A DNA stretch of 64,000 bases from Cylicocyclus nassatus (lineage: Eukaryota > Nematoda > Chromadorea > Rhabditida > Strongylidae): contig CATQJL010000112.1 in the NCBI GenBank assembly GCA_958299035.1, forward strand, positions 52,194,463 to 52,258,462, given 5' to 3'. Shown here in pieces: positions 25,315 to 63,194 of the stretch (its first letter is position 1; each line of letters opens with the position of its first letter). The position numbers and the translations under genes were made by a program. The notes under the pieces are model-generated. The model was not told the origin of the DNA and made no database searches. It saw nothing but the letters and a program-made list of their open reading frames with translations.

Positions 25315-26432
25315 TTGCAAATTAGGGATCAGCACCACAGCTGCCTCTACTCGACGGATCACCAGAAGATACGTCTACAAGTTAACGAAAACCTTGCTAA
25401 CTGGTACATCCGAAGCAACCAGCTTTCTAAGGACGAGAAGAAAATAGAAGTCGGTAAATTAGCAAAAAAGGCCGCTCTTCAACTCTTCAAAACCAAAATC
25501 AACATCGTTTGTAAGCTCGTAAAATCCTACGAGTCCGGAGTGGAGAACATAGACGTCCTCTTCACATTTCCAACAACAAAAGGAGAATGTGAAGAATATA
25601 TCAAGGAAAAGGCAGGAGTAATGATAAATCTCCTCAATTCTTTGCAAAACGCTGTGAAATTGCAAGAAACACAGCTCAGCACTGCCACTACATCAATGCA
25701 CGCAATAAAGAAAAGGAAAGAGAGAAGCTGATGATTGAAATTTACAAGCATTTGGAGCTGGAAGCACTAGATCTGGAGGTGATGGCAGTTCAATGGCAAA
25801 ACCGTATACAGTTCAGACAACATGAACTGAGGGAGCAAACGGCGCTTTTGCATACGTCTGCTTCTAGTATTCAGCCAGTCAGCGAGATAGAAAGAGGCTC
25901 AACAAAGGAACGTAGTGAACGCCACATCAATTTCCGGAAACCGCTCCTAGAGATTCCTACATTCTCTGGCAACTTCAGAGAGTTCAACAGTTTTTGGACA
26001 GTGTTCGAATCACTCATTCACTGCGACGAATACCTCTCGGATGGCGATAAATTCCTTTTTCTGAAGCAAGCGCTCAAATGAAAAGCTGCTGCTGCTCTGA
26101 ACTGCATCCCTGTCGTTGGAAACAAATACAAGGCAGCCGCAGACATCTTAAAGAAGCACTTTGATCGCTCTGCCAGCATGGCAGATATACTCATCAATGA
26201 AATCCAAAGACTTCAAGAAGGAAAAGGCAATCATGAAAGTTGCCGAGAAACTTTTGAAGCAATCAATTCGAGGATCATTCACCTAAAACAAACCGGAATG
26301 AAGATGAGCGCAAACAGAATCTGGCGCCGAGTAATTCTGTTGAAATTTCCTGAAGCCATCTGCGCAACCGTCTTACAGAAGGAGACCGTACATGGCGATC
26401 ACTTCGATTTTCGGATATTCTCCACGCAATAG
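25315..26432 (+). pseudogene. BEL/Pao gag, decayed
   Basis: The capsid-like region of BEL/Pao elements is visible in three successive open segments: 25315-25731, 25731-26081 and 26082-26432. The middle one contains LEIPTFSGNFREFNSFW, the hallmark of the gag region annotated as DUF1759. A TGA at 26079-26081 follows FLKQALK, and the same frame continues with gag-like sequence. The first two segments are in different frames. The region is therefore inactivated by at least one frame change and one stop. Confidence 0.7.
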
Positions 26433-26701
26433 ACGACATCATCTCGCTGCAGGAAACGACATCACTAAGAATGAAGACGCTTCTTCCAAGCAACCATCTA
26501 GACACAAGTCTGGAAGTCCAGAATGGAAAGAGGAGGAAGGATATCTCTATCAGTTTCAATTTTCTACAAGCACCAATCATTATTCGCAAGTCTCTGAGAT
26601 ACTGCTAAGAACCACTTCGATCATCGCGACGCAAATGAAGCACACGTTGTACAAACTCGGCGAGATGACAAGAAGTCTACTGCTCAAGCAAACTGCCAGT
26701 C

Positions 26702-27403
26702 GTGTGCCAAAGCGTACTTCGAACGGCTTCAGCCATGATATTCAACGAGGCAGATTGGGATCATCAACCTATAACAATACTGATTGACTCTGGCTCCCAG
26801 CGAAGCTTCATCAGATCAAAACTTAGTGAAGAGCTTAAGCTGGCAGTTATCCAAACAATGTCATTCACCGCATCAGGAATGGGAGAATTGAAAGAGACAT
26901 TCACTTCCAGTGAAGTAAGAATTACTTTGAAAAGCTTTCACAACGCAAAGAAACTCAAGAAGATACCATTGCACACAAAAGAGAAGTTGACTGCCAACCT
27001 ACATACAGCACATCTCACAGATGCACAAGTCCATTTCATTTCCAATAAGAACTTGAAGGTAGTTCAAGATACGCTGACTCATAAAAGCTTCTTGCCCGAT
27101 CTTATTATTGGACAAGATCTTCTCAACCTCATCACTCACACCGAAATAGTGCGAAAGCTTCTCTCCGGGCTCATATTGACCCCAACCATCTTTGAATATA
27201 TCATATCCGGTATAAGCCGCAACAACGTGAGCACAGAGATAGTTGGCATTTTTGGATGTATATCCACGATGCAGGAAGCCTCCAAACTCGCTTCTCACCC
27301 TCATGACACCCAGATGGCTCACAACAGAAGACGTTCACCATTCTCAATCAAAACGCTACCGGTGGAATCAACAGGAGAATCTTCCGAGCGCATGCTGAAG
27401 TAA
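26702..27403 (+). pseudogene. BEL/Pao aspartic protease region
   Basis: An open segment of 233 codons contains ILIDSGSQRSFI, the aspartic protease active-site motif of the DUF1758 type. It is followed by LPDLIIGQDLL and GLILTPTIFEYIISG, segments common after the protease in BEL/Pao polyproteins. The frame ends at 27403, and nothing resembling reverse transcriptase follows before the 3' LTR. The start given is only the first in-frame Met. Confidence 0.7.
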
Positions 27404-33176: not shown

Positions 33177-33676
33177 NNNNNNNNNNNNNNNNNNNNNNNN
33201 NNNNNNNNNNNNNNNNNNNNNNNNNNNNNNNNNNNNNNNNNNNNNNNNNNNNNNNNNNNNNNNNNNNNNNNNNNNNNNNNNNNNNNNNNNNNNNNNNNNN
33301 NNNNNNNNNNNNNNNNNNNNNNNNNNNNNNNNNNNNNNNNNNNNNNNNNNNNNNNNNNNNNNNNNNNNNNNNNNNNNNNNNNNNNNNNNNNNNNNNNNNN
33401 NNNNNNNNNNNNNNNNNNNNNNNNNNNNNNNNNNNNNNNNNNNNNNNNNNNNNNNNNNNNNNNNNNNNNNNNNNNNNNNNNNNNNNNNNNNNNNNNNNNN
33501 NNNNNNNNNNNNNNNNNNNNNNNNNNNNNNNNNNNNNNNNNNNNNNNNNNNNNNNNNNNNNNNNNNNNNNNNNNNNNNNNNNNNNNNNNNNNNNNNNNNN
33601 NNNNNNNNNNNNNNNNNNNNNNNNNNNNNNNNNNNNNNNNNNNNNNNNNNNNNNNNNNNNNNNNNNNNNNNNNNNN
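33177..33676. other. Assembly gap of exactly 500 N
   Basis: Unknown bases. The round length suggests a default placeholder, so the true gap size is unknown. It lies about 180 bp downstream of the cathepsin B stop codon and does not interrupt that gene. Confidence 0.98.
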
Positions 33677-33859: not shown

Positions 33860-36800
33860 TTAAGCATTCATAATAACTGCGTCAACCATAAAGGTTTCAA
33901 TATTGCATTCGTCGGTTCCTCGGCGTATCTTGAAGTAGCCTAAAGTAGTAATTAGTTTCCTTGAAAATGATGTTTCGGTAAGAGTTCGCAAAGGCCCAAA
34001 CAAATTTACCGCCATCTCCCCAGTCAGCGCCCCAGGAGTTCGAAGCGAGCCAGTATTTCACACCATTCTCTACACCCCATCCTATGAGTCTGATAGCGTG
34101 ACCTCCTTCCGATTCTCCCCATGTGTGCTGAACACAATGATTCAAGGAAAAATCTCTGAAAGCTTTTACTTGCAGCACAAAATCATCATGTTTTCCCAAA
34201 GAGGAGTATGTTTCACGCTGCTATTTGCTTGTGTAATTTGAAAATCGTTGATACTTTTTTAGGTTTTTGTAAATCTTTCTTCTATGCACTGCTTTTACGG
34301 AGCAGGAGAATTTGCTCTTGCAACACAAAGAGTACACCTCCTTTAATTATCTTCACGTTACATATTTCGAAATTTTTGAGCCAAGCATAACCCGTTAACG
34401 AATATGTTTTTACATTACGCAGTTGATAGACTCTAACAACGCATTCAACAAAGCTTTTCTAATCACAGTTTTACTTATCGCGCAAGCCTATTGCATAATT
34501 CAGAAAGCTCCATTTAACAAACACGGGTAAATGCTTCCATGCTTATAAAAGTTGATTGACCTTATCGGCAAACGTTTTGGAGAAAATTTGGGTGATTCCT
34601 TTTATACTAGATTGCGTATGTGATAGGTGCAAACTGCTCTGCCATAGGTGATGAATATACTAACAAGGAAAAGACCCTCAGTCGAAGTGGGGTTTACACT
34701 CGTGATGCATAACATCCTGCTGGTCTTGGGGCACTAATAGATCCGTGTTCCTTAGCTGCTCAACGATCTCCAGGGAAAAGTTATGAGGGACGGTTCCCAC
34801 GATGACCGCTGAACCTCATAAGTCTGGGGCGCCATGAAATGTACAGATGTGGACGGATGGATGGGTCGATTTGTGGAGATTACGGCGCAGGTTATGAAGG
34901 GTTGGCGTTCACTATAGAGCCAAACTTTGAATTCTTGTAAATTTCATTTTATGAAATAGTAAGCGATTTTCAACGAGGATTTGTTCGTCGGAAATCGTCC
35001 ACAAATTCACAGAATACAGTTGGCAAAAATACAAAGCTTGGCTTTATAGGGAATGTGAACTCTTTACCACCTGCGCCATAGACTGCGCAGCTATCCGCCC
35101 GCCCATCCGTCCACACCTGTACCTTCCTTGGCGCCCCGGACTTAAAAAGTGCAGCGGTCAAAGTGGGAAACTCTAGCTCATAACTTTTCCCAAAAGGTCA
35201 TTGAGCAGCTAAGGAACACGGATTTGTAGTGCACGTGCACCAATACCAGCAGAATAATATGCATCACGTGTGGAAATCCACTTCGACTAAGGGTCCTTCC
35301 CTTGTAAGAAAGGTTCAAATTTAGCATAGCTTTATAGTGAGTACTCACTACGTATACTCCATTCTTGTAATAATTGAAATCGCTGTAAACGTAGAACGCT
35401 GCTGTAACGGGTCCATTCGTGAAGATTTCCTTTCGAATCGCATCTTCGTTCGCAGCGACCGAATATGCGGAATTTGCTATACAGCACAACAGAATTACTT
35501 TTAATGCTGTTATTGTCGAGACTGTACTGCCAATTACCGTAAATCTTGTCGCTGTAATAATCCACGTTATATCCAAACTGACATTGCGCGCGGCAAATTG
35601 GCGTTTGTTTGTCTAGACTATTTGGAGGGAACGGGTATGGTTTGCAGCAATTCTGAAGAATATCGAGCAATTATTCCATCCCTTTGAGGGCATCGCACAC
35701 CTTTGCATTGTATGGACCACCAGTACATACTCCATTGGTCATTCCATACTGATAGGCTCCGATGGGTATTCCTCCTTGACATCTATAAATTATCCATAAG
35801 CGCTTTTACTCCAATAGGAAGACTGGATTGGAATCAAGGTGTGAATATAAAAAGCTGCTGGACTTATGTTTTTCTGCTGTATTAATTCCTCTCGAAAATA
35901 TCTCAGTGCTTTCCTTAAAGACAAGTATTTTCCTGACAATAAGTAGTTTGAGAAAATCAGTTCAATCTGAAGGATCTCGCTGAGTGCAATTGTAGTAAAA
36001 GTAAGAAAGCTTGCTGGCCAAATTTCGTAAACATAATCAATATCAGAGTGCAGCTTGCACGGTAATACTCTGAGGTAATAATAAGTAGTCGAGATGCAAT
36101 ATATTATAGAAACGTCAAACATTGCGCATTTATGCAAACAAAAAAGTTTCGAGAAAAAAGATAAGGATAATTTCTATGATTATGCTGCAAAGGCGGTTCT
36201 CTCTGAACGGGAAAAGGATTTGGTGAACGTGGCCTTTCGTAGTGTGACATATGTCATGATATCCGCCTTAAAACGCTGATCTCAAGACTGTGTCCATTAT
36301 CTGCGGAAGGATTCTTCGGAACTGTATCTCTTTGCGTCTGACTTGTTTGCAATAGAATAGATATAATGTTGATAGAGGCTAGAAAGTCGAATGTTCTGAC
36401 GGTTAGCATTATGTTATTGCATACTGAATGCCAGTTTGATCTCTGTCGGTGCGAATTTTGCTTTCGTTTCCCCAGCGGTACTTTTTCCCAGGTAAGCGTT
36501 CGAGTCTTTTTGAATCGAATTTTCGAGCATAACGCTGTGGTGAGGATATAGAAGTTTGTTAATCTTAGGATGAATCAGTGAAAGAGATTACAAAACATGG
36601 TTTTGCTAACAACGAGAATTGAGCCTCGTATAATCCTAATAAAAAAATTCAGTTTTTCTCATGTGTTATACTATGAAAGTAAAAATCTTCGTTTGCTGAC
36701 AAGCAGATCATTGACAAAGCCGAGCAAAAATGCTGGCAAAAATTACTAACGAGTCACTAAATACACTTTACTAAAGTAAGATTCGAGAAACCCGAAAGTA

Positions 36801-41395: not shown

Positions 41396-42786
41396 TATTT
41401 GCTTGCTGAAAGCCTGAGTTCCTTACGTAATACTCGAAAGCAAAAGATCAAGTCAGCTGTAACCTACGGTGTTCTAGGCTCATCATATTTAGTTCCTTAA
41501 GACGGTCATTGTAAGATGGAATGTTGATAATGGCCATGCCTCTGTTGCATCTAAAGTAAAGCAAAGGCGTGAAAGTTTGCTGAACTTTCTCTATCTTTTT
41601 GACATCTTTCCTGAGGTGTGGATTCCACACCTGCGAGCAGTATTCGAGATGGGGCAGGACATAGGCTTTTTAAAACCTTTTGTAGATAGACTTATCTTGG
41701 GAGTATATGGATCGAAAAATGGCATACAAAACATTATACGCCTTTCTGACAACAACATCTATATGCTGAGAGAATTTGAGGGACGAGTCAAGTAATACTT
41801 CAAGATCTTTAGTCAAACTACATTCAGCCAACCTAGTTCCATTAATTTCATAACTAGCTCCTTCATTTCCTTCGATATGCATGACCGAAATTTTCTCAAG
41901 GTTGATGGGAAGATCCCATTCACTTGACCAGAGCAGCAATTTTTCAACGGAAGTCTTCAGGGCATTACGAGTTTCTAAATAGGTGGAGGAGTCATTGGTA
42001 CCATAAATTTTCACATCGTCGGCATACATCTGTACCTTAACTGAGGGCGATGTTTCCAGTATAGAAGGCAGATCCATGGTATATAATAAGAAGAGTAATG
42101 GTGAAAGTGCCCCTCCCTGAAGAGCTCTACTTTCACATGGATGCCTCTTAGAGCAGTTAAGGCCAACCTTCACAGACATGTATCTATCCCTTAAATATGA
42201 TTCTAGCCAACAAAGTAAATTTCCAGAAATTCCAATGTTTTGAGTTTTGCTAGGAGTTTTGTATGGCAAACTTTATCAAATGCTTTGGGAAAATCTACAA
42301 AAATAACATCGACACATTGATTATTGTTGAGCGCCATCGTCCAATCAAAAATGATATCTGCTAGATTGGTTACAGTACTTCTCCCTTCCAAAAAACCATG
42401 TTGCTCTTTGGGGATAACATCGGATTTCAACAGCCACGATGTAAGTTTTTCTCTGAGGAGTTTTTCTCTCTTTTTTCCATAACCTTGACTAACGAAGAGG
42501 TCATGCTAATCGGACAAAATTCGGATACTAATTGTGCGGAAGAAACTTTAGGAATAGGTGTAATTAGGGATTCTTTCCACAACTGAGGAACTTCTCCAGT
42601 AAGCGTAGAAATGTTGAAGATGTGAGCCAGACGTTTGCAAAGCGTCTCAGCACATTCCTTATAAACAATTTGAGGTATACCATTAAATGGTTCTGTCAAT
42701 GAAGGCTTCATAGTTTTCAAAATTTTGAAGACATCGGAGGGATTCAAGTATACATCACATCGACGGGATGGAACTAAATTCACCAA
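41396..42786 (-). pseudogene. LINE ORF2: reverse transcriptase and C-terminal region
   Basis: Open segments at 42786-42427, 42430-42203, 42269-41670 and 41630-41448 cover the RT domain in order. Visible motifs are WKESLITPIPKV (RT-1), EQHGFLEGRSTVTNL, DFPKAFDKVCH (RT motif A), ALQGGALSPLLFLLY (motif B) and MYADDVKIYG, the catalytic YADD. The C-terminal part has WNPHLRKDVKKIEKVQ. The segments change frame between each other, so this copy is inactive. Confidence 0.8.
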
Positions 42787-42891
42787 CTCGTGTAAAAGTA
42801 ATCATTATGGACTCTTTTCGATTGAAAACACTGACAAACTAATTCGCAAGCACATTGGCTTTTTCAGTATCAGTATTGTAGCTCTTGCCGG

Positions 42892-43890
42892 TCAAGTTTT
42901 CAGAACTGGTAATTGATAGTTTCCTTTTAGTTTGGAACTCACATAGCTAAACAGTTGTTTTAAAGATGCGCTAACAGTGAGCTTTCTCTCTTTATATGCA
43001 AGAAATTTTTTTAGGTGGTAATCGATATCTCTCCATATCTTTTTGTATGAGTCATTGTTAAGTGGACTTTGAAGGTGCAAAAAGAGTCGATTTTTTTGAT
43101 CTAATAAAGTTTTTAATTGCTGAGGGTACTTAGATCTGGAATTTGTATGGATTCGAAAGGGTACAAAAATTTTGAAAGCTTGGTATACAACATTGCAAAA
43201 CCTCCGGTATACATCGTCAGCAGATGAGTACTGGCTAACGCGCAACCAATCAATGCTCTGGAGATAATGATTTAAAGAAGAGAAATCTACTCGCCTAAAA
43301 TCAGGCAAAGGAGGAAGATTATGATAACAAGAGTTTTCATTTAAGGTAAAACTGATTACCGAATGGTCGGAGCTAGCGAGAGGTGCCATGATTTTTACAT
43401 TTGATACAATAGGTGATGACGAAAGAACTAAGTCAAGAATACTGAACACACGCGTCAGGGATTTTACCACTTGCTCCATGCCTTGATCAGCAAAAAGGCT
43501 CACAAATTTTGCAGAAGTATTATTGAGTGGTTTCACACGGCTCCAGTCTACTTGCAGATCAAAATCGCCAATAATTACTGTGTTTGTGTTTGCACTTGAG
43601 AGATCAGCCAGTAGACAAGCCAATTCCTCATCGTCAGTCAACTGGTTACTAAGAGGACGGTAAACTAATGCAGTAGTGATTGAGTCAGCACATAAAACGC
43701 TTCTTTTTGTTGAACTGCGTACTTCTATATTCTGAATCAAAAGTGTTGCATGAGCCAACAAACAAACTCCGCCCCCTGTACGAGCACTTCTATCAGAGCG
43801 AAAAAAAAGGTGAATCACCTATTAGTTCGCTATCAAAAACCTTAGGAGAAAAGCATGTCTCAGTAAACAAAAACGAGATCCGGTTTATCT
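42892..43890 (-). pseudogene. LINE ORF2: apurinic-type endonuclease region
   Basis: The segment 43818-42892 encodes TGGGVCLLAH, VIIGDFDLQVDW and ASSDHSVISF, the conserved positions of the EEP-type endonuclease of CR1/Jockey LINEs. The usual GDFN has Asp in place of Asn here. Upstream sequence to 43890 contains FLFTETCFS, the earlier TETW-like motif, in another frame. The domain's first residues lie beyond the insertions, near 45100. Confidence 0.75.
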
Positions 43891-43896
43891 TATATA

Positions 43897-44543
43897 CAGG
43901 GTGTCCCAAAAAATGTATCGAACGTTTGATCGTTAATATCTCTTTTCCCAAGAAGTCTTTTCTCTTGCCTCAAGTGCTAGTCTGTAGAGCTAAGTTCAAC
44001 TTAGTTTTGCGTTATAGAACGAATCACTCATTTTTCTTCATTACTGTAGGATTACGGTAGGAACTTCAAAGAGGGTTTTGAGCAATGAAAGGCCATATTT
44101 TGCCTCAGAAAGGAAACAAAACAGCCTGAAAGCTTTTACGCTAGGCTACTTAGAGTTGCTGATTATAACTGTAAAGTTCCCAACTTATTATGATGCTTCA
44201 TTGAAGAGTTATGCCAGGTAAGAGGTAGCGGCCATTTTTCCAATGTTCTTAAAAAGTGCGATTAAACCGTTTAGAAAGCTTCGTAATCTTGTGAATAGTT
44301 TAGCATTGAACTCAGCATCCATAAAAACCCTATTACACATGTTTTCACATTATTTTGAAAACCATATGTTTAAAGTTTCAACCGTAATCCTACAGTAATA
44401 AAGAGAGATGGGTGATTCTTTTTATAATGCAAATTTAAGTTGAAGCCAGCTCTACAAAACGGTACCTGAAGCAAGGCAAAAGACTTCTTAGGAAGAGAGA
44501 TATTAACGATCAAACGTTCGATACATTTTTTTGGGACACCGTG
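43897..44543. mobile_element. Mariner-type MITE inside the LINE
   Basis: The ends are CAGGGTGTCCCAAA and the near complement TTTGGGACACCGTG, flanked by TA (43895-43896 and 44544-44545). The arms are about 180 bp and share CTGTAGAGCTAAGTTCAAC and TACTGTAGGATTACGG landmarks in mirror order. It is 647 bp and non-coding. Fragments of the family lie at 18457-18600 and about 3915-3990. Confidence 0.75.
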
Positions 44544-44545
44544 TA

Positions 44546-44555
44546 TAAAGCTGAA

Positions 44556-44586
<31 letters not shown>

Positions 44587-45056
44587 ATGTCTGTGTGTAC
44601 GTATGTTCCGAATAAAAAATTCCATTTCTGAACCGATTCGGACCAAACTTGGCACACATATACTTCGGGCCCCGGCGGGTGTCACAGTGCACTTTTCGTT
44701 ATCGACTGATGTCGATTTTATCGATTTCTTGCGAAATTTGAGCTCCGGGGCTGGGAGTTGGCACAGGGGGTAATCGAGCATGCTGATCACCCCCGTGGAG
44801 TGATCAGCACGCTTGATTACCCCCCTGTGCCAAATCCCAGCCCCCTAGCTCAAAATCGATAAAATCGACATCAATCGATAACGAAAAGTGGACTGTGACA
44901 CCCGCCGGGGCCCGAAGTGTATGTGTGCCAAGTTTGGTTCGGATCGGTTAAGAAATGGAATTTTCTATTCGGAACATACGGCGGAGCCGGGTATGCCAGC
45001 TAGTTACGAATATAATAATGGCAGGGCCGGGCGGAGCCGGGTAAGTCAACTATTAG
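44546..45056. repeat. Head-to-head pair of the 6896-7192 repeat
   Basis: The left copy, with the TCTGTCTGTCTG microsatellite outermost, and the right copy, ending GGCGGAGCCGGGTATG, are inverted around about 44793. Landmarks AACTTGGCACACATATACTT, CGGGGCTGGGAGTTGGCACA and their complements are mirrored. It lies directly beside the mariner-type MITE and together they split the LINE. Confidence 0.75.
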
Positions 45057-45191
45057 TAGGATAAAAATGCATGTAAATGGTGAATTTTGTTTGATAGACT
45101 TCTGGCATTGAAAAAATAAGCTCTTATATTATTCTGAGACCCGTGCAAGCTTGCGCGTTTCCCGTTCTCCGAGTATCCAGATCACTGATTT

Positions 45192-45911
45192 TTACAAGTT
45201 GCCCGCGGTAGACAACCCATTCCTTGCTTTTTTTCCTCTATTACGTTCACTTGCTGCCTGCCTGAAGTCATACTCCGACTTGCGCTCTTCCTGGGTCATG
45301 CTGCGACGGACATAGACACCAGGAAATCCGGCGTTACGGAGCGAGTGAGCGTTGGTAAGAGCGCGCCGCCAGTAAAAGGTAGAAGGTAGCACCAGCTTAA
45401 TGAGCCTCGGGTGGGATGGACTGGGTTTACCCAGCCAATACAGCTCGCTGGGTGGACAGTCGATGTCCGGCGCCTCTAATATCGAGTCTACCTTTTCCTG
45501 AAGATAGTTCCGCCGTTCAATTGCTCCCAAGCCTTCAGGCGGCTCCTCCACGCCGCTTATTACAAGGCTTCGGGACTTCTTCTCTTCCTCAATGACGGCT
45601 GACAACTCCTTCAGTATTTTTTCCGCTAACACTTTCAGCATATCCGTCAGGATGGGATCGCGACTTCTTTCAAGCATTGAAGAGATCAAATCCTGTGCGC
45701 TCATGCTTCTGTACTCTTCAATTCCGCTTCCACTGGCCTCTAGATCCAACTCTTCATTTCCTCTAATCGCACGTTGCGAGCCATATGAAGGTCCTTTGCT
45801 TTTGCTTCCACGAGTCGTTTTCACAGGCTTTCGATCTACCCAACGCAAATTATCGATCACAAAACTGTCCGAAAAACTCAACTCAGTAAAAAACCGGCGA
45901 ATGCAGGACAA
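45192..45911 (-). CDS. LINE ORF1 protein, intact frame of 239 codons
   Basis: Nucleic-acid-binding ORF1 product of a CR1/Jockey-type LINE, inferred from the pattern SRSLVISGVEE, then IERRNYLQEKVDSIL, SELYWLGKP, RLIKLVLPS and GVYVRRSMTQEERK. This order is shared by ORF1-type proteins of nematode non-LTR elements. A zinc-knuckle part is not seen. The N-terminal third is Ser/Glu rich and low in motifs. The frame is uninterrupted although ORF2 downstream is broken. The first Met is taken as the start; a later one is possible. Confidence 0.65.
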   Translation of the reverse strand: MSCIRRFFTELSFSDSFVIDNLRWVDRKPVKTTRGSKSKGPSYGSQRAIRGNEELDLEASGSGIEEYRSMSAQDLISSMLERSRDPILTDMLKVLAEKILKELSAVIEEEKKSRSLVISGVEEPPEGLGAIERRNYLQEKVDSILEAPDIDCPPSELYWLGKPSPSHPRLIKLVLPSTFYWRRALTNAHSLRNAGFPGVYVRRSMTQEERKSEYDFRQAASERNRGKKARNGLSTAGNL

Positions 45912-52350: not shown

Positions 52351-52763
52351 TGTATTGGTTGGTGGTGGGGATATATCAGAACTATAAGACTTCGAATACC
52401 AAACCACAACCAAAAGTATTGCCACGCGGGACTTCGTATACGCACGAGCACACCTCAAACTTGGGTAATTAAACTTTATCTGGTTAACAAGAATAGCAAC
52501 AATAAACACGATTAAATGGATAACAATGGATAAAATGAATAAATGAGATATAAACTACAAATATAACAAATTGAGAGAAGGCAAAACTAAAGAGCAAAGC
52601 GAATGGCGGAAGCAAGCAAGTGCAACGATACTTATATACATGACTCTATTCTTCTAGCTGCAGCTGCGCGCGACTTCACAGATGACGTCCGAAAAACAAT
52701 GCATCTGTGCTAGCATCTGGCCTTCTCCAGAAATATGCTACGAGATGACTAACATCTCGTATA
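52351..52763 (-). repeat. 3' LTR of BEL/Pao element 2
   Basis: 413 bp, plus-strand start TGTATTGGTTGGTGG and end CATCTCGTATA. It is identical by eye to the 5' LTR except GCATCTGTGC against GCATCGGTGC. It begins nine bases beyond the stop of the accessory ORF. Confidence 0.92.
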
Positions 52764-52771
52764 CTCCGGCC

Positions 52772-53647
52772 TCACCAGGGAGAGTGCGAGGGACCAGGTC
52801 TGTCGGGGCTTCTTTCCCTCGGGCGTTTCCGTCTGTTCTCCTTTATCTGCCTCGCCAGCTCGACAATTTGCTGCTTCGTATCAGAGATCTCTTTGAGAAG
52901 TAACTTGTGTTGTCTTTGTGCTTCAATATTCATCTGAAGATCTCGTTCCTTTCCTTTGTTCAGTGCGTTATCAATCTGCTGCTGCACCCAGTTCCGGGTT
53001 TCTTCTTGTTGTTGTTTAAATTCGCTCGCGAGCTCCATGATAGCGTTGTTCAGTTCTTCTCTTGCTTGATCCTGAACAGGTCTGGCTTCACCGATTTCTT
53101 GTTCAACATCGCGAATTTCGTCCAGCTCAGCCTTCAAGACGACGTTGTATCCTCTTTTAATCTTCTCGACTATCGGTATCACAGTTTCTCTCTTGTAGTG
53201 TCGGTGCTCAGATTGTGGCTCCGGATAGTTCTCATCGCCTGGTGTTGTGGGCCTCAGGATAACGCTTTCTTCCAGCTGCTTTATGTACAGAATGCGGTCT
53301 CTTTCCTGGGCTTCATTGGCCACCACGAGTCTTTCATACCATTCATGCGCAAGTGTGAGCTGGTCCATCCACATACCAACTTCATGTTTCTCCTGCTGGT
53401 GTTGCGAGTGAAGATCCTTCAGTTTCATGATATAGTCCATATATTCTATCAGGTTGTGTGGTATCTCCCATCTGTCCGATCTCAGCTCGGTGAAGTCCAA
53501 CTTTGCTTGTTTGAGATGGTCTTCATACTCTTGGCATTTCTCTGCGCAGGCCCTTATCTGTTGCTGAACTTGCTCCTCGTTTGGTTTCGGGGGCGACGGA
53601 GCTATGGCCGGTAATGGTTGCAGCATTCTTCCTCTCTGTGCATCCAT
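52772..53647 (-). CDS. Accessory coiled-coil protein between env and 3' LTR (291 aa)
   Basis: A single uninterrupted frame of 291 codons. It starts with a Pro-rich segment (residues about 10-22), then long heptad-like helices rich in Glu, Gln and Lys (about 24-125 and 160-270, for example EEQVQQQIRACAEKCQEYED), and ends in a basic tail with RRKRPRER and SPDRPGPSHSPW. It has no signal peptide or membrane segment, so the product is probably cytoplasmic or nuclear. A good splice acceptor (TTTCACAG) lies about 11 nt before the ATG, suggesting expression from a spliced subgenomic RNA. Its openness next to broken pol and env is notable. I recognise no family. It could be a viral accessory protein, a captured host coiled-coil gene, or a gag-like duplicate. 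Confidence 0.7.
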   Translation of the reverse strand: MDAQRGRMLQPLPAIAPSPPKPNEEQVQQQIRACAEKCQEYEDHLKQAKLDFTELRSDRWEIPHNLIEYMDYIMKLKDLHSQHQQEKHEVGMWMDQLTLAHEWYERLVVANEAQERDRILYIKQLEESVILRPTTPGDENYPEPQSEHRHYKRETVIPIVEKIKRGYNVVLKAELDEIRDVEQEIGEARPVQDQAREELNNAIMELASEFKQQQEETRNWVQQQIDNALNKGKERDLQMNIEAQRQHKLLLKEISDTKQQIVELARQIKENRRKRPRERSPDRPGPSHSPW

Positions 53648-53952
53648 GATTGTTCTCCCTGTGAAATCAAAGTTAGTGTGTGGAACTGTTAATTACCATA
53701 AATGAAGTACTGGAAACTTGCATAAACTGCCCGCGGTGTGCTGTAGCCATGCGGACATGAATAACAATTACGGCCATGCGATAAACGTTGGACGTGAAAC
53801 GCTCTCCGCTACTGAGCGGTTGACATGTCTACAGGATGAATAAGGTTACAAGGGTCGAGATTGTACATACAACAATAAATACGGTGAGTAAAATTACTAT
53901 GAGAGAAATTTTGTGCAAACTAAGAGTGAGTGCTCATGCAGGTGCATTGATT

Positions 53953-54348
53953 TTATAGGATTTTTTTCTCCGAGTTTCTCTTTTTTGAGTGACAAAGCAT
54001 GCGGAGACATCGAAAGGGTAATATCACAAAGAATTTAAGCAAATGATATGCTGATATGAACAACGCGTAGATTACACGACAAAAGGTTCTGATGACAGAC
54101 AGAACACAGGCATTGGAGGCATAGAAATACGTTATTACCAAGGCAACGATTACTACCAGTACTGTCGCTCCTAGTATACAGTACCACATCAAGAATGTCT
54201 GTGCCAGATGCGAGAAGTCTGGTAAGTTTATCTCCGAGAATAATTCACTTTCGCCTTGTAGAACTCTTCTCGCCGCCATATTTAAGTTGCCCGTGTAGTG
54301 TAGGATACCTGAGATCTCGAATGTAGTTTGAACCTTTCCGCATCGCAC
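53953..54348 (-). pseudogene. Env-like protein, C-terminal segment with membrane anchor
   Basis: A 131-codon open segment in a frame shifted by one from the upstream env segment. It ends the glycoprotein: a short ectodomain stretch, a strong membrane segment (ILGATVLVVIVALVITYF) and a cytoplasmic tail ending in basic residues. The same frame is open upstream to about 54450, so the true segment starts before the first Met given here. The frame change lies near 54450. Confidence 0.65.
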
Positions 54349-54454
54349 TGTGCAGTTCCGATAAAATTGCGCTTTATCAGCAACGAATGTGACATTGGTC
54401 TCCGTCCCTTCCTGACTGCATGGGATAACAAATAGGCTGTCTTCACACTCGACC

Positions 54455-55204
54455 TCAGCTTTTGTTGCTGCTACTGAAGATGCACATTAGTACTGCCATC
54501 GCTCCTTTAGCACAGTTGTAGCATCCTGTGCTATAGGCGTTCTCCGCTGAACAGATAGCGTCGGATCGTAGTGCTGTAATGCGAACTTTGCTCCTCATTC
54601 GAAGTATGAATTCTGCTGTCGGCAGTTGAGGTATCCGAGCTGTGACCTTTTCATCGATAGCGCGAAATTCGAGATTAGGACGTATAATCGGCAATCGGTG
54701 TTGTGGAGTGCTGATTAGGGAAGTGAGATTTACCTCTTTGCAATCGCACATCATTTTTGTTTCGGCTGCGGCACATTTGCAATCCTCGTATACATCACAG
54801 GTGAGGTTTTGCGCATCTTCCCATGTCCTACATACCAACGGCGGCTCCTGGTGCGCTTCCACCGTGGCGTATCGCTTTCCGTCTGTGAGAAATATCGAAT
54901 TCAAGGCCGGCGTGGGTGGTGTGCTCAGGGATGAAAGGGTTATAGTGAACGATGATATGCTTTTTGGTTGATTCGGTATGACCTGGAAGTCGTGGCTGTG
55001 CTGCACTGAACCTTGTTCGCTTACGGTTAGTTTTAAGTGTACGAACTGTTTCCAACGTGGACATCTGAAGATTTCGTACACATTCTCGTCCGTTGGAACA
55101 AGGTATATCCTGTAATATAGGCATCCCGAGCTAGGATAAAAACAATCGCAACCTGGTCCTCCACAGCTCTCGACACATCCAGTGACACCCGGATAATCGT
55201 TGAC
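54455..55204 (-). pseudogene. Env-like protein, central ectodomain segment
   Basis: Open for about 250 codons in the same frame as the segment ending at 55205, immediately after an in-frame TGA (55205-55207). It is rich in Cys and Gly near its start (about 55100-55190), a composition and placement resembling the fusion-region of phlebovirus-type class II glycoproteins, to which env proteins of Cer7/Tas-like elements have been related. Further Cys pairs are spread along it. It ends at a TGA at 54455, where the reading moves to another frame. Confidence 0.6.
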
Positions 55205-56125
55205 TCACTGCAGTTCCTTCACCTTTGATGTCCGTTGTATCCCTGCGCATTTTTCTCCTGCACATGATCCGGCATGAGGGCAGCGTTTGCTATCCACTAG
55301 TGCGTATCTAGTGCTTCTGAAGAACAGGAGAGTTTCCTTTTCGCAAACAAGGTTGAGATTCTTCCAAGCCAGCTTGATTTCCAAAACGCTAGTATGGTTA
55401 CTCGTAAGTCTCATGCACGCTTCTTGTTTGAATGGATTGATTTTCAGTATCTCTGTGGTGTCGACGGTGCAGTATTCCTCGTTTCCAGATTGAGTGCATG
55501 CTTGCGTCTGGTGCGTTAACACTTCAACATCTTGGCATCCGGCTGCTAGTCCACTAATGCAGAGGATCGTAAGAAGAACAACATCTCTCATCCATGCTCT
55601 TCTTCTTCTTCGTCGGTCGTTGCCTGTTGCGATTTTCAGCAATCGGCATAGTAACCTGAACATCAGCCATCCGCACATTCCTGCCAGCTTTAGTCCATAG
55701 AGTATCGGTGTTCCTAACAGCACTGGCACGCGGAACAGGCAGTAGCACATGGTTATCGCCAAGTATACTAGCAATCCGGTGACTAGTATAGCCGTGCGTG
55801 GCCAGCATTCTGGATTGCTCACCATCACTGCGCAGAAGGTGCAGTCTATCTGTTCGCAAAACGGTGCTGCCTTGCACGTTGTCTCCATTATGTGAACGTC
55901 TTCACCGTCGAAGATTTTCCATTTGACGAGTTGTTCGTGCAGAGTGATTTGTGGGGGAAATCTTACTATTTCCTGTTGCCGCGGCGTTTTGAATTCCATG
56001 CAGAAGTCTTCTGCACAAATTTCGTAGGGCTGTCGATTTGCTTGCAGAAGAGACACTCCTCCTTCAATGCACTGGAGTTGGTAGCTCTCGTTGCTGCTTG
56101 ATCCCGCTGTTTTCGTCACGCACAA
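55205..56125 (-). pseudogene. Env-like protein, N-terminal segment
   Basis: An open frame of about 306 codons. It starts with a hydrophobic signal-like stretch that extends upstream of 56125 with no nearby ATG, then a Cys-containing domain, membrane segments (ILVTGLLVYLAITMCYCLF near residue 115), an Arg cluster (DRRRRRRAW) that may be a processing site, and a second signal-like segment (VVLLTILCISGLAAG). This two-part layout recalls bunyavirus Gn-Gc precursors. The frame is the same as the end of pol, separated by a stop at 56198-56200. An in-frame TGA at 55205-55207 ends it, so the product of this copy would be truncated. Confidence 0.65.
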
Positions 56126-56197
56126 TGAAAGTAGAGCTACCGTGAGCAGCGATGTTACGGATGAGGCGAAGGTTGGGGCTTTTCTGCGCGTCGGTTC

Positions 56198-56584
56198 TTA
56201 TTCTTTCTGTTCATTATAATTGGTGGGACGTCTGGAACGGAGGTTATATCGAGTAGCAGGTGCCTCCGATGGGAAGGAAGTCTGCGGGATCTCCTCTTTG
56301 TCGATTTCTAGAGGTACCACTCGATTTATAGGTCGTCGTAAGCGTCGCTTGTTTGGCGTTTCCACGACGACTTCTCTCGTCGGCTTTTGAGGAGATTCAT
56401 CTACTTGTACGATTCGTGCGGTTTTCCATGTGTTCCTGGGCTGTACTGCGTCCCACAAGAGTACGATATCTCCTTCCTTTGGCGATTTTTTTGTTCCACG
56501 CTTCTCGTTCATCCGAATTTTATGCTGCTCTCTCAGGCTCTTAAGGTACTGTTCAGTCCAGACTTTCCAGAACTTTTCAGTCAA
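56198..56584 (-). pseudogene. Pol C-terminal region after integrase
   Basis: A 128-codon segment with FWKVWTEQYLKSLREQH, GDIVLLWD and RNTWKTARIVQV, the pattern of the domain that follows integrase in BEL/Pao polyproteins (DUF5641). It overlaps the end of the preceding segment by 8 nt in another frame, so a frame change of one occurs near 56580. It ends in TAA, followed in the same frame by the env region. Confidence 0.75.
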
Positions 56585-57353
56585 GGTCTACAGATGTTTT
56601 CAGCGCCGCTTCAGTTTGACGTTGTGTAGCTAGTTGTTGTGCTTCTTCTGGAGTGTGGTAAATTCGGTCTTGTCCTTCTCTACCTATGTACTCCAGAGGA
56701 TAATCCAGAGTCATCTTGTTTTGAATGAAGTCTATGGGTCGAAGTATTGGTTGTTCTTCCCATTTTTCCTCCTGATAAGTTAGAGGTCGTGAGTTCAAGA
56801 CCGCTTCTATCTCCGTGAGCATGGTCCTGAGGCCATCAAAAGTGATGGTTCGCACTCCAAGCGTTTTGTACAGCGAGTTTTTGATGGAGCGGATAAGCCT
56901 CTCATAAAATCCACCCTGCCACGGTGCATAAGGCGTTATATGGTTCCATCTAATCTCTCGCCATGCTATTTCGCTTCCTACTTCAGTGCTGTTGACTATA
57001 TTTTCTGTGGCGTCTTTCAGGATTTGCTCCCCCAACAGGAATGTTGGTGCATTGTCAGAAGTGAAAGTTTGCGGTACTCCTCTTCTTGCAAAGAACCTTC
57101 GAAGCGCGTTGAGGAATGCTTCTGTGGTCATGTCGCCCACGAGCTCCAAATGTATGAGCCTTGTTACTTGACATGTGAAAATGCATCCGTATGCCTTATT
57201 GGATTCGTCGTGATTATCAATGTCGTCAACGGTCCGAAATAATCCAATCCTATATGCTCGAACGGGCGTGCGCGGTGTACCCTTGTTACTGGCATCGCTT
57301 CCATGTCGAGATAGGCAAATGGGAGATTGTTCATCTTTTGGCATGGGACGCAT
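56577..57353 (-). pseudogene. Integrase catalytic core segment
   Basis: A 258-codon open segment holding most of the integrase core: FTSDNAPTF (second catalytic Asp) and TPYAPWQGGFYERLI (catalytic Glu). The first catalytic Asp (GLDYFGPL) lies in the preceding segment, because the frame changes between about 57240 and 57164. The first residues given are out of register with the domain. Confidence 0.8.
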
Positions 57354-58519
57354 CTTTGAATCAGGCTTCGTACTTGTTGTCTGAGCTTAGATATCCAGTA
57401 TTTTTCGCGTACGGTAGCCATTGTGTGGGCGATTCCACGATGATAGTGATTGTGGACCTCTGAGATGATGAGACGTGCCAACGTTGTTCTAGGTGCGATG
57501 TAGATGGGTGTTTTTGCTGTGATTGGTACATCGGATTGCTGCATGCGTCCATAGCAGCGTAAAACTCCTCTCTCGTCTCGTTGAATGTTCAGGTCCTTTT
57601 GTGACTTAATTTGGTGTTCGTCCACGTAAATTCTCTGGTGGTCGCGAATTAAGCACATTTGGCTTTCCTGCATCTCAACTCCCGTGATAGTCTGCGACAT
57701 CGAAACTCCTTTGAGTGCCGATATGTGCTCTTGCACAGCAACCTTCCTTTCGTGAGGTAGATGATTTATGGATCTGTGTATGAAACGCAGAACGTAGACC
57801 AGCACTCTCTGAGCTCTTTCGAGGGTGCTAAATCTGGTTAAATCGACTAATTCCTTCTCAGATGTTCTTTCTGTTACTGCCAAAGTCACCGTCTCCACTG
57901 GCATCATCGTCGTCTCTGATCCTTCGATTGCGTTCAGTTTAGAATGGTCTGGCTTGCTCGTGAAACTGGGTCCTGTCCACCAGAAGTGATTTTGAAACGC
58001 TTCCGATGATAGTCCTCTGGTTCCGCAATCAGCTGGGTTTTCTGCTGTTGAGACGTGTCCGAAGAGACATGTCGTGTTTCGACCGCGGAGGTCATTGCTG
58101 ATTCGCCTTATCTCTGTTAGTCGGTTTGTGACCAAAACGCCTGCGCTCTGACGTGATGGAGGAGTGTGTATCCATCCTAACACGATATCCGAATCTGTGT
58201 AGAGGATAACCTCCTTGATGTTACAAAGTGGTTCCAGTGCATCGCAGATAAAGTGGGACATTCGCACGCCTAGCGTTAATGCATTCATTTCCAACTTGGG
58301 AACCGTCATTGAAGTTTTGATAGATGGAATTTTGGATTTTGCCATTATGATGCTGGATTCTTCTTGAGAGGTGAGATATGCGCATGCTGCTATTGCGCAC
58401 TGGCTAGCAACATTGAAGACGACGAGTCTGTGGCCATCGGATTTGTTGAGGATTCGTCGATTCACCTCCTTGTAAAATGTGGAGATTTCTGATGTTATTT
58501 GATGCCACTGATCACGCAA
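57164..58519 (-). pseudogene. RNase H and integrase N-terminal segment
   Basis: A 451-codon segment. RNase H-like motifs include VPKLEMNALTLGVRM and ILYTDSDIVLGWIH. The integrase zinc-binding part follows (HNHYHRGIAHTMATVREKYW, then CVPCQK) and the start of the catalytic core with GLDYFGPL near the end. It overlaps the RT segment by 8 nt, indicating a one-base frame change near 58515. Confidence 0.8.
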
Positions 58520-60896
58520 TTGTGCTGGAAGCGGTGTGTCTCAGTCCAATCCTTCCTTCCATAATGACTGCATGAATATTTTTGCCGGTAGTAGGTAGTA
58601 GTAGAGGCACCAGAAATCCCATTGGATCATACACCGAAGCAAGTTGCTGTGTGACTGTTCGCTTGGTGTCGTTTCCCTTCAAGGTTGCCAACGAGCCTTT
58701 GATTATGAGTTTGTCCGTTTCCGAATTCCATGTGATGCCTAGGACCTTGGGGGAGGTGGATTTCATCTTGTCGGCCTCATCAATGGCGTTGCAGAAGGTT
58801 TTGTCGTTGGAGCAAAATTCTCTCAAGTTCATTTTGAGGTCTTGGAAGAGCTTCTTTGTGTGTGCATACTTCAAAAGTGCTTCGTTTGAAGATTGTGCAC
58901 CAAAGAATAAGTTGTCCACGTACAAATTCCTTCTTATTTCCGGGGCCATGTCGTCATCAGCTGTAGTTTCTAGGTGATGATCTATCGTAGCGCTTAACAG
59001 GAAGGGAGAAGCGTTGAGTCCGAAGGTAACTCTGGTGAATCTGTAGACCACTATGTTATCCGGCGTGGGTGGAAGTGAGATATCCCTGACCCAAATACAA
59101 CGGGTGGCGTCGCGGTCCTTTTCTTGCAGTCGTACTTGTAGGTATGCCTTTTCGATGTCCGACATCACTGCGATACTGTGCATTCGGAATCGAAGCAGAA
59201 TTCCAACCAAATCCGGGAGGGTGAGAGGGCCTTGATGGAGTACGTCGTTGAGGCTAGGGCAGTCTTTGTAGTGGGCTGGCGCGTCAAAGACGATTCTCAT
59301 CTTTGTCGTTTCCTTAGAGGGAGTGATTACCGCCTGATGCGGTAAATAGTAGACTACTTCTCCTTCATCAATGTACTTCGATATTACTTCTTCTATTATT
59401 CCCTTCTCTTGTTGTTCCTTGAAGATGTTGTCGTACGCTTGTAGTGTCTTCGGGTCCTTTTGATATATCTCCAGGATCTTTGCAAGACGTTTCATTGCTA
59501 GCGCCTTGTTATCGGGGAGTTCGGGATGGTTCTCTTTCCATGGTAGGCGTACGTAGTAGCCGTCCCTTTTCTCGATGGACTCCTTAAAATTTTCCAATAC
59601 TTTCTCGTTTGTTTTCTGGAGCTCCGTTTTTTGTGGACCAGTGTACTCCTCCGTACCGGTGGATTCCAAAGACCAGTAGCGGTTCCATGTCTCCTTTTCA
59701 GTTTCATGTCCTTGGAGTGTGCATGATACCGCCAGCCTTTGGCGCGTGTATCCTTGTCGACCGCTAATGATATATCCTAGCTTGGTCGGTATCAGGTGCA
59801 GTCCCGAACGCAGGTTCAAATTGCTGCTGAGTTCCATGAAGTTCCAAAGGTAATCGCAACCTAAGGGGATTTGTGGTCGCAGGTCTCCACCTTCTACAGG
59901 CAGGGACAAATCGTACTTTCCTTCCTTGATGAACCGTAGATCTTCAGGGTCGAGGTTCGCTCGCTGTACAGCGCTTGTAATATAATCATTCTTGTACAGC
60001 TGTACTTCGTGTTGTGTGCCTTCTTTGTCCAGCATCTTCAAAACGGTTTTGGCGCACGTTCTTGTCTTCACTGCAGGTGACCCAAACGTACTGAGCTCGA
60101 GAGAGGCTGTGCCTAATGTTGGCAACTTGAGCTCGTTTGCAAGCTCCTCTCCAATAAAAGAGAGCTCTGAACCTGTATCCAGCAAGACGACAGTTTCCCT
60201 TTTGTTCCCATCAGTGTCGAGTACCTGGATTGCTCCTGCGAGTAGGACTACTCTGTTCTGTCTCCAGCCATTTTCTTTCTTGAGCTGTAGTACTGTTGGA
60301 GTTTCGGCATTTTCCGTTGCTCGCTGTTTCGTTTCGTGAGTGTCTTGTCCGATTGACTCCGTTACCACATGCTGCTTCGAAGAACAATAAGGTTTTGCTG
60401 GCGTCTTCGGCTGATTTTTGGGTGTTCTTGGTACTTCTGTTCTCTTCTGTTGACTTCGCTCCGATCGATTTTGCGCGCCTTCGCCCGGCTTTTGTTCCAT
60501 ACATATTGCCGTATGATGTTTTTTGCCGCACTTTCGGCAGTTGCCGCTAAGGCATGAAATTACTCTGTGATCAATCGATCCGCAGTTGATACATCTGCCA
60601 GTGTCCAAAAAACTTTTTTTCTGTGCTGCTGTAGGAATTTGCGAACAATTCATCCACCCGTGTCCGTTACCTCCACAGCATTCACAAAGGTTGCTTGGTT
60701 TCCATCTGCCGATCGGTCCTGACGGTGATTTCATCGCCACCGTATTGTGACTTGCATGATTTCTTGTTTGTGTTTCGACCGAGAGCATGTGGTTTATCTG
60801 TTCCTCTTGTGATATGACGTCATCAAGGGCGTCGAGCCGTTGGTCCAATGTCCACTCGCTATTGTTTTCTTCTTTGTGTCTAAGTCGTTTCTCCAT
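58512..60896 (-). pseudogene. Zinc-knuckle, protease and reverse transcriptase segment
   Basis: A 794-codon segment in element order. Zinc knuckles are at residues 71-132 (CECCGGNGHGWMNC, CRKCGKKHHTAIC). The aspartic protease has VVLLDTGSELSFIGEE at about 236-251. RT begins near residue 480, with MRIVFDAPAHYKDCPSLND, VMSDIEKAYLQV (motif A) and NLYVDNLFFGA (YVDN, the catalytic motif C variant usual in BEL/Pao). The frame is also open for some codons upstream of the first Met and overlaps the end of the gag segment, so the real polyprotein probably ran on from gag without a new start. Confidence 0.85.
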
Positions 60897-60906
60897 AGCT
60901 GCTTTC

Positions 60907-61716
60907 CTAATGCGTACGTGAAACTTCTGGAGAAAGATTTGGATTGTTATCTGATTGCTGAGGTGCTTCTTCTAGTTGCGCTGCGATAGTTGAAAGTTTG
61001 TCCCATAATTGACGCTGATCTGCGGTGGTGGGTCCTCTTGCCAAGCAGTTGTGTAGACTTTTGTTCAGTTCCAGTATAATGCCATCTTTGTTGCCATAGC
61101 GTTTCGCCAAATGCTGTATGGCTTTTTCGTAATTATTTGCTGATACGAAGAATCGCGAGATCGATTGCTTCGCCTCCCCACTCAGGGCTGACAGTAAATA
61201 GTTAATTTGCAATTCCGTTAGATCCTGGTCGTGTACGTTGGCTTTGAATATGGCCCAGAAGTTGTCCCATTCCCATTTCTTTCCTGTGAAGCTTGGGATA
61301 GGTATAGTTGGAAGTTTGCTGACTGCTGCAGAACATTGGTGGTCGGTTCCACTTGTTCGGAGCGTAGCTGCCGTCGTTATTTCTTGTAGCATCTGCTTGG
61401 TATTGGATTTGTGTGCGTATAACTTCATGATAGTCTCTTGAGCAATCTCCGCGTGCTTGTCTAACTGATCTTCTTCTTCGTCTGTGGTATCCTGAAGTTT
61501 ATCGAAGGCTTCCGTGAGTTTAGTTAAGGATGCTTCGAGAAGTTCCAGATATTCGTCACACCTCGCCACAGTCATTGTGAATTCCTTGACTTGTTCTTGT
61601 TGTGTGCTTTTTCCCTTCAGGTGTTGAAGACGCTGTGTGGATTCTTCCAACCATGCCAGAGCGACTTGGCTTCTTTTGGTCATCAGTCCCTTGTACGCTC
61701 TTACTGTAGTTGTCAT
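60907..61716 (-). pseudogene. Gag N-terminal and capsid-like segment
   Basis: A 269-codon segment starting with a plausible ATG 140 bp after the primer site. Residues about 45-115 form a predicted coiled coil. LPTIPIPSFTGKKWEWDNFW and LLSALSGEAKQSI are the conserved BEL/Pao gag (DUF1759) positions. It stops at 60907. The downstream frame already carries the expected continuation before that stop, so a one-base frame change near 60940 separates gag from the rest. It could be a programmed shift, but the other frame changes in pol argue for mutation or sequencing error. Confidence 0.75.
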
Positions 61717-61855
61717 TATGGAAGTGCAGGAAAGAAATTCTGTGCAATTCTAGTATGTGCAGATGATCCACTATCGTGCAACAATCAAAGCGTATCGTGC
61801 AAAGCAAGCGAGACACACTTTATCTTCTGCAATAAAAGGTACCTCTTGATTTGGT

Positions 61856-61865
61856 CGATGCACCA
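61856..61865 (-). other. Primer-binding site, tRNA-Gly type
   Basis: On the minus strand TGGTGCATCG lies two bases after the 5' LTR. It is complementary to the CGATGCACCA 3' end of tRNA-Gly(GCC). This is the same primer choice as BEL/Pao element 1. Confidence 0.8.
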
Positions 61866-61867
61866 CT

Positions 61868-62280
61868 TGTATTGGTTGGTGGTGGGGATATATCAGAACT
61901 ATAAGACTTCGAATACCAAACCACAACCAAAAGTATTGCCACGCGGGACTTCGTATACGCACGAGCACACCTCAAACTTGGGTAATTAAACTTTATCTGG
62001 TTAACAAGAATAGCAACAATAAACACGATTAAATGGATAACAATGGATAAAATGAATAAATGAGATATAAACTACAAATATAACAAATTGAGAGAAGGCA
62101 AAACTAAAGAGCAAAGCGAATGGCGGAAGCAAGCAAGTGCAACGATACTTATATACATGACTCTATTCTTCTAGCTGCAGCTGCGCGCGACTTCACAGAT
62201 GACGTCCGAAAAACAATGCATCGGTGCTAGCATCTGGCCTTCTCCAGAAATATGCTACGAGATGACTAACATCTCGTATA
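61868..62280 (-). repeat. 5' LTR of BEL/Pao element 2
   Basis: 413 bp, nearly identical to 52351-52763. On the minus strand it begins TATACGAGATGTTAG and ends CCAACCAATACA. It should contain the promoter. A TATA-like motif is present (TGTATATAAGTATCG near 62155, minus strand). Confidence 0.92.
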
Positions 62281-62304
62281 TATAATTCCAAATAACAAAT
62301 AGTC

Positions 62305-63194
62305 ATCACATCGAAGTCTTAAAGGCACCGTCCACCCAAAGTGAGGGTTGATGAGATTTCGGTGCATACTAGTGTGGGCCCCCTCACTAGGCAAACCCCC
62401 AAGTAGCGCCACAAAATACTCCCTCCGAAGCGAGAAATCCGCTCCGGAAGGGACGTAACCAGAGGTGGTCACTCCGCCCACTTTGCAGGCGCACCGTTGG
62501 AGCTGCTACACGCACAGCGCGTACACTGCCTTGTCGTAGGCGACTAATCGGAGTTTTTCTAGTGTTATTTCGTGTATTAGTATTCTTAACCGTTCGTTTT
62601 TTATTCAATCATGCCGAATATAGCTATCATCAGCATCCGGCATAGTTGTTTCTTGATGTGAACATGATCTTTCTTTATAGCTGACGCTTTGTCAATGAAA
62701 CAAGATGAACATGCGAAGAGAACGTGAGTTTTTTTTTCATTGCAATGTAGTTACATCAAGTTCAAGAACTATTTGTAGTCAAAATGATCGTTGTCGTCGT
62801 TACTACATGACTATTGGATCATTGCAATCTGTCACGCATTTCTGCGCAGCTCACTTGCTATTGCTGTATGTTGATCATGACGTGTTATTAAATTATTTGA
62901 TGGAATTGCTTTGCAGACAAGTGAATCCTTTTCCATTTCCTAATACTCCTAATCGATTGCATAATTGCCCGTGACTAGTTTGCAATTTACGCCCTGCGTA
63001 TATCAGCGCGCCTGCAAAGTGGGCGGAGTGACCACCTCCGGTTACGTCCCTTCCGGAGCGGATTTCTCGCTTCGGAGGGAGTATTTTGCGGCGCTACTTG
63101 GGGGTTTGCCTAGTGGGGCGCCCACACTAGTATGCACCGAAATCTCATCAACCCTCACTTTGGGTGGACGGTGCCTTTAAGTATTTGATGTGAG
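62305..63194. mobile_element. Foldback MITE with ~190-bp arms
   Basis: TCACATCGAAGTCTTAAAGG at the left mirrors CCTTTAAGTATTTGATGTGA at the right. Inside the arms GCACCGTCCACCCAAAGTG, CTCCCTCCGAAGCGAGAAAT and CCCACTTTGCAGGCGC all recur in reverse complement. The middle (about 62510-63000) is AT-rich and non-coding. The left end lies 20-25 bp from the BEL/Pao element. Confidence 0.7.

Follow-up and report, generated by a model that had tools for sequence, protein, structure and literature searches.

A putative accessory gene downstream of env, and SL1 leader copies in both LTRs, of a nematode-type BEL/Pao element

An env-bearing BEL/Pao element on the minus strand of the 64-kb window (the whole stretch of DNA that was analyzed) contains, between env and its 3' LTR, a fourth long open reading frame of 291 codons (ORF4; 52772-53647, minus), and each of its LTRs contains a 21/22-nt copy of the spliced leader SL1; the ORF, its place in the element, its length beyond chance and the leader copies are observed directly. 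In our view, ORF4 is probably a true accessory gene, with a spliced mRNA of its own, in an env-bearing belpaovirus of nematodes. Our best full explanation goes further, and we give it somewhat less than an even chance: ORF4 would be expressed as a separate SL1-headed mRNA through a predicted acceptor 11 nt before its ATG, with a leader that is added in trans by the host's SL1 machinery or in cis from an SL1|GT site in the LTR, and its product would be a rod-like coiled-coil oligomer that governs unspliced RNA. The original prediction of a spliced accessory protein behind env holds with respect to the env-bearing element, the extra ORF, the acceptor and the helical product, whereas its suggestions of RNA binding and of capture from the host are weakened by the results described below.

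The element covers 9,930 bp (52351-62280, minus) and has 413-bp LTRs. Repeat comparison places the 3' LTR at 52351-52763 and the 5' LTR at 61868-62280 (both minus); the pair is identical at 412/413 sites, and TATAA is present by eye outside both element ends. The gag ORF (60907-61716, minus) contains DUF1759 (Pfam E 1.5e-20). The pol region (56198-60896, minus) is interrupted and spread over several frames, with matches to the DUF1758 protease (E 1.1e-13), reverse transcriptase (RVT_1, E 4.2e-7), Peptidase_A17 (E 7.1e-18), the integrase zinc-binding domain (E 9.3e-14) and DUF5641 (E 1.9e-14); rve, at E 2.7e-6, lies under the Pfam cut-off. The env region (53953-56197, minus), also interrupted, matches envelopment polyprotein and the Gc family Phlebovirus_G2, the latter in two pieces (Pfam E 3.1e-30 and 1.8e-34). 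Chain 7a4a, a structure of Atlas virus Gc, matches both of these pieces (E 4.1e-11 and 9e-6). The stretch upstream of Gc matches the "Envelopment polyprotein" chain 8i4t_F (E 7.5e-10), which leads us to take this stretch, judged by its position, as Gn-like.

Pfam names A17 "Pao retrotransposon peptidase," and we take this family and DUF1758/1759 to mark BEL/Pao elements. The BEL/Pao gag and pol domains lie between LTRs that are within the 0.2-1.2 kb given for Belpaoviridae (PMC8742986), and the catalytic motif of the reverse transcriptase in the element's translation is YVDN, as reported for nematode belpaoviruses in the available text of two papers (PMC9094657; PMC554778). Together, the Pfam domains, the Gc-like Env and the YVDN motif lead us to assign the element, on its translated sequence, to the env-bearing BEL/Pao elements of nematode type (Cer7/Atlas). 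As originally noted, pol and env are both broken in this copy: the stop map shows five to seven breaks in the 7.8 kb of gag-pol-env, two of them possibly natural gene boundaries. Given the 412/413 LTR identity, the pol and env breaks could also be assembly errors.

The window contains further features outside this element. Pieces at 25315-27403 (plus) show matches of 37% to its gag over 27 aa and of 27% to its protease region over 166 aa; they probably represent a second, decayed BEL/Pao-like element. Adjoining the 5' LTR, at 62306-63193, are two inverted-repeat pairs, one with arms of 116 nt (96% complementary) and one with arms of 78 nt (95%), which may represent a mobile element of hairpin type. 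By eye, ORFs at 41670-45911 (minus) resemble pieces of a LINE endonuclease and reverse transcriptase, and an ORF at 35178-35576 (minus) resembles a cathepsin B exon; a run of 500 N at 33177-33676 is presumably an assembly gap.

The ORF map confirms that ORF4 runs without interruption for 291 codons from the ATG at 53647 to the stop at 52772; the gap between this stop and the 3' LTR (52351-52763) is 8 bp rather than the 9 bp given previously. An ATG ORF of 291 codons was reached in 0/2000 dinucleotide shuffles of ORF4 (median 58 codons, largest 183), and the presence of an extra long ORF in an env-bearing BEL/Pao element is thus supported by this test together with the Pfam domains and the 7a4a match. 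Codon usage was scored after training on six pieces of the element's own gag, pol and env, which themselves score 0.137 to 0.233, with ORF4 left out of the training. ORF4 scores 0.218, against 0.193 for gag and 0.187 for pol1 (both in the training set); the env tail piece, outside training, scores -0.048. In the remaining two sense frames of ORF4 the scores are 0.197 and 0.112, compared with 0.097 and 0.035 for those of gag, and the codon score separates ORF4's frame weakly, less well than it separates gag's. The sense frames of ORF4 are told apart by stops, with none inside ORF4 and 16 in each of the others. An antisense ORF of 235 aa was rejected because its codon scores are negative, the antisense frames ranging from -0.195 to -0.366. 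At the element's break rate (five to seven breaks), a stretch of 876 bp escapes interruption with P 0.57 to 0.46; the openness of ORF4 in a damaged element is therefore less telling than it seems, and its intactness alone proves nothing.

A protein search with ORF4 yielded one homologue among 1108 candidates at E up to 1, namely P0001, a 314-aa unnamed protein of the strongylid nematode Cylicocyclus nassatus. P0001 is 69% identical to ORF4 residues 157-290 (93/134); over residues 159-272, 88/114 positions are identical, as are 27/30 LIVMF positions. It begins level with the start of the second half of ORF4, lacks a counterpart of the N-terminal half and extends 181 residues further without a match in ORF4. 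Opposite the last ~20 residues of ORF4, P0001 matches another frame of the window (17 aligned residues, 82% identity, E 0.003). One of the two is thus frame-shifted at this point, and they do not share the basic tail behind the RNA-binding idea. With P0001 as query only P0001 itself was found (3705 candidates), and ORF4 residues 1-156 gave 0/33 candidates at E up to 10; these searches used at most 100 words each and targets of 0.55-1.75 times the query length, and can miss distant relatives. The viral contig search returned no relative of ORF4, of the pol piece 57167-58519 or of the env piece 54458-55081, and phage records gave no match. Neutral simulation of the ORF4/P0001 core gave P values of 0.13 for the share of positive substitutions, 0.07 for mean BLOSUM and 0.15 for the absence of stops; this simulation does not reject drift and is suggestive at best.

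These data bear on three other accounts of ORF4. If it were a host gene, or a piece of one, captured by this copy, an annotated worm protein such as P0001, with its 181 further unmatched residues, would fit; however, the three length- and word-limited protein searches gave a single homologue in one worm species, and P0001 might in turn be a fragment of a sister element or a copy that the host has co-opted, which leaves the host-capture part of the original prediction highly unlikely. A decaying or dispensable remnant, open by luck in a damaged copy, would be in keeping with the escape probability calculated above, with a tail frame that differs from that of P0001 and with the nonsignificant neutral simulation, but it has to be set against the 0/2000 shuffles that reach 291 codons and against LTRs that differ at 1/413 sites and thus leave little time for decay; we judge it quite unlikely. 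Third, ORF4 might contact a host protein by way of its coiled coil and so counter host defence, for example small-RNA silencing or capsid restriction. Accessory genes of retroviruses frequently act in this way, and the single homologue points to a narrow distribution as far as searched, but no family or fold indicates a host target, and we consider this account unlikely.

The predicted acceptor TTTCACAG (53648-53681, minus), with CTAAC upstream, has its last base at 53659 and is followed after 11 nt by the ORF4 ATG, in agreement with the original description, and the site is plausible. Upstream of the acceptor the ORF4 frame is closed by a stop at 53695; from the acceptor on it is open. By a nematode weight matrix, the acceptor ranks only 41st of the 730 AG sites in the element. 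Of 725 AG sites, 29, this one included, have YAG and are as rich in pyrimidines, and 2, again with this one, have CTAA upstream as well, the latter being a test framed after the site had been seen. The 294-nt stretch from the last env-region ORF to ORF4 (53659-53952, minus), which includes the acceptor, shows an RNA fold not above that of shuffles (z = +1.09).

A search for SL1 (GGTTTAATTACCCAAGTTTGAG) with up to 3 mismatches revealed two sites in the 64 kb, both of them in the LTRs, and none in 100 shuffles. The copies lie at 61971-61992 in the 5' LTR, followed by donor-like GTGTGC, and at 52454-52475 in the 3' LTR (both minus); each matches 21 of 22 nt, with the first base as the sole mismatch. 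The SL1 primer sequence is printed in the Cer1 paper (PMC3315495), and PMC7652881 gives the identical leader for Haemonchus contortus, a strongylid, in the available text of each. In the 5' LTR, the region from the TATA box at 62155 runs via a T-rich stretch to GATAAA at 61997-61992 (61992-62155, minus). In LTR order, TATATA is at nt 126, nt 150-287 are 51% T and 12% G, and GATAAA (nt 284-289) abuts the 21 matched SL1 bases (nt 290-310), which are followed by GTGTGC and ~100 nt to the LTR end. We take GATAAA to be a variant of the poly(A) signal. The 441 nt between the TATA box and the start codon of gag contain no ATG, as in a fraction of 0.0006 of 5000 base shuffles. Scored with a donor matrix, the GT behind the LTR SL1 comes 8th-9th among 429 GT sites, behind one in gag at 61561.

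The best match to the SL2 leader is 15/22, which is at chance level. An SL RNA gene in the LTR was considered and rejected: there is no SL RNA body, and the downstream fold has z = -0.51. Rfam, which we take to include SL1, yielded two weak matches to unrelated families but no SL RNA family for 61850-62300 with a limit of E 10, and 0 hits over the whole window at the gathering threshold. The RNA fold of the 5' leader is not above shuffles (z = -0.28), and the exact 21-nt SL1 sequence occurs in none of the viral contig or genome contig collections searched.

The presence of SL1 in the LTRs suggests that the element borrows the leader-splicing system of its host, and the splicing part of the ORF4 interpretation is the stronger for it; an acceptor 11 nt before the ORF4 ATG, combined with the LTR SL1, makes an SL1-headed ORF4 mRNA a likely product. 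Three readings of the leader remain. The LTR SL1 may be the 5' end of a trans-spliced genomic RNA and serve as R; SL1 and its GT may act as the donor for cis-splicing to ORF4; or the LTR SL1 may be the relic of one capture. The last has a precedent in flatworms, where 597 partial-leader loci at mobile elements, mainly LTR and LINE, are explained as possible integration of trans-spliced transcripts (PMC12582326, available text). Like those loci, the present case has a leader without an SL RNA body at a retroelement; it differs in that a 21/22-nt leader stands in both LTRs of a nematode-type BEL/Pao element, beside GATAAA and GT.

The first of these readings can be extended to a complete scheme, in which host SL1 is the element's R, rebuilt at each reverse transcription, and ORF4 guards the full-length RNA; as a whole, this scheme seems to us improbable. 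Genomic RNA would receive SL1 by trans-splicing within the LTR, the first strong-stop cDNA would then anneal at the SL1 copy of the 3' LTR, and each round of reverse transcription would restore SL1 in both LTRs, while ORF4 would be the factor that stops full-length RNA from being spliced away. If true, the scheme would account for a 21/22 match in which only the cap-adjacent base is off, for the GATAAA and T-rich, ATG-free stretch abutting the leader, and for the ORF4 mRNA acquiring the same leader. For Cer1, the available text reports the spliced mRNA both in an SL1-bearing and in an SL1-free form and describes the 8-kb full-length RNA as not SL1 trans-spliced at that site (PMC3315495), which speaks against assuming an SL1-headed genomic RNA here.

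Structure prediction bears out the long-helix product proposed originally. A single-sequence AF2 model of ORF4 (mean pLDDT 66, pTM 0.29) is mainly helical and contains a 122-residue helix at 153-274, with block means of 84-96 over residues 191-270. When P0001 is added, confidence is lower (mean pLDDT 60.7), with a helix at 156-274, block means of 65-88 over 191-270 and a merged helix at 66-129. Residues 153-274 have a hydrophobic periodicity of 3.64 residues, which 0/2000 shuffles show as strongly; among the shorter helices, the fraction of shuffles that are as periodic is 0.011 for 24-47, 0.109 for 61-83 and 0.729 for 87-130. On this model, residues 153-274 fit a long coiled coil, and we infer that the protein self-associates.

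The whole protein is acidic (net -9, pI 5.7) and has 2 Cys. Its C-terminal end (52772-52843, minus) is Arg/Pro-rich and basic in this copy, as predicted, with net +5 over residues 269-291, but this tail is absent from the frame of the homologue. Set against Rev-like export factors, which combine a basic RNA-binding/NLS segment with an NES, ORF4 has RRKR/KRPR at 272-277, within the tail that the homologue does not share, and patterns loosely resembling an NES at 66/67, 90 and 122. Against Pfam, ORF4 has no family above cut-off and no zinc-finger or RNA-binding family, and the proposal of RNA binding is weakened by this result together with the unshared tail and the acidity of the protein. NCBIfam gave three matches, all far under cut-off, and solved-structure sequences gave three, the best at E 0.36. 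Foldseek with the first ORF4 model gave none at E <=0.001 among 452 viral and 305 PDB hits (E up to 10), and no link to CERV or Rev emerged among these hits.

The rod-like helical prediction would also suit a structural partner of Gag or Env, such as a particle component that acts as a coiled-coil scaffold or resembles a matrix protein. ORF4 adjoins env; its one weak Pfam match, to a family of phage capsid scaffolds (E 0.08; 13 bits vs. a cut-off of 33.6), we count as noise. However, ORF4 has no similarity to the element's gag, pol and env pieces at E 0.1, which also led us to reject gag duplication as its origin, and Atlas virus is described, in the available text, as having a single Gag-Pol-Env polyprotein (PMC9094657). 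We regard a structural role as fairly unlikely.

For the accessory-gene explanation, the likeliest job of ORF4 would be to control what becomes of the unspliced genomic RNA, be it its export, its stability or its delivery to Gag, in the manner of CERV; this assignment, made by analogy, is possible but doubtful. A CERV-like role is preferred because an element with its own donor and acceptor needs a means of keeping full-length RNA. CERV of Cer1, a Gypsy/Ty3 element of C. elegans, is translated from a spliced mRNA, and the unspliced genomic RNA requires it for export; its C-terminal half is encoded by the region from pol to the 3' LTR (PMC10309623, available text). According to the same source, CERV has a helical part that resembles a zipper and lacks evident homology beyond nematodes; it is 517 aa long, with H, M and G domains, a cysteine-rich loop and N-terminal exons in common with Gag. 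Compared with this description, ORF4 has 291 aa, is predicted to be all helix, and has its own ATG and 2 Cys, and its element, unlike Cer1, is a BEL/Pao with a separate env. CERV is the nearest worked-out case and is taken here as an analogy. Against our full explanation stand the acidic protein, the acceptor rank of 41st and the close codon score of a second frame; drift is not rejected, P0001 lacks the N-terminal half and the tail, the RNA between env and ORF4 has no unusual fold, and model confidence falls to 60.7 with P0001.

Among known elements, Atlas virus of Ancylostoma ceylanicum (Belpaoviridae) is likewise a BEL/Pao with a phlebovirus-like Env and YVDN, from which the present element differs by an extra ORF after env and a broken coding region; the words ORF and accessory are absent from the available main text of that report (PMC9094657), as is accessory from that of PMC3118150. 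Extra ORFs besides gag and pol are described, in the available text, for LTR elements of other families, namely in plants (PMC7264820; the term coiled-coil is absent from the main text as available) and in the MDG1 group of Drosophila (PMC11952523), where sORF2 is a short transmembrane protein. Titles and abstract openings among the open-literature papers retrieved, a scope that leaves much older Cer/Tas literature outside, mention no coiled-coil accessory ORF or LTR-borne SL1 in nematode BEL/Pao elements. According to the Belpaoviridae profile, members of the family have one to three genes (PMC8742986), compared with which this element has a fourth long ORF, a putative gene; the gene number is a description and not a basis of classification. 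If our interpretation is true, the element would count as a "complex" belpaovirus by virtue of a fourth gene served by a dedicated splice site, much as the lentiviruses do within the retroviruses, and SL1 fixed in the LTRs would tie reverse transcription to nematode trans-splicing.
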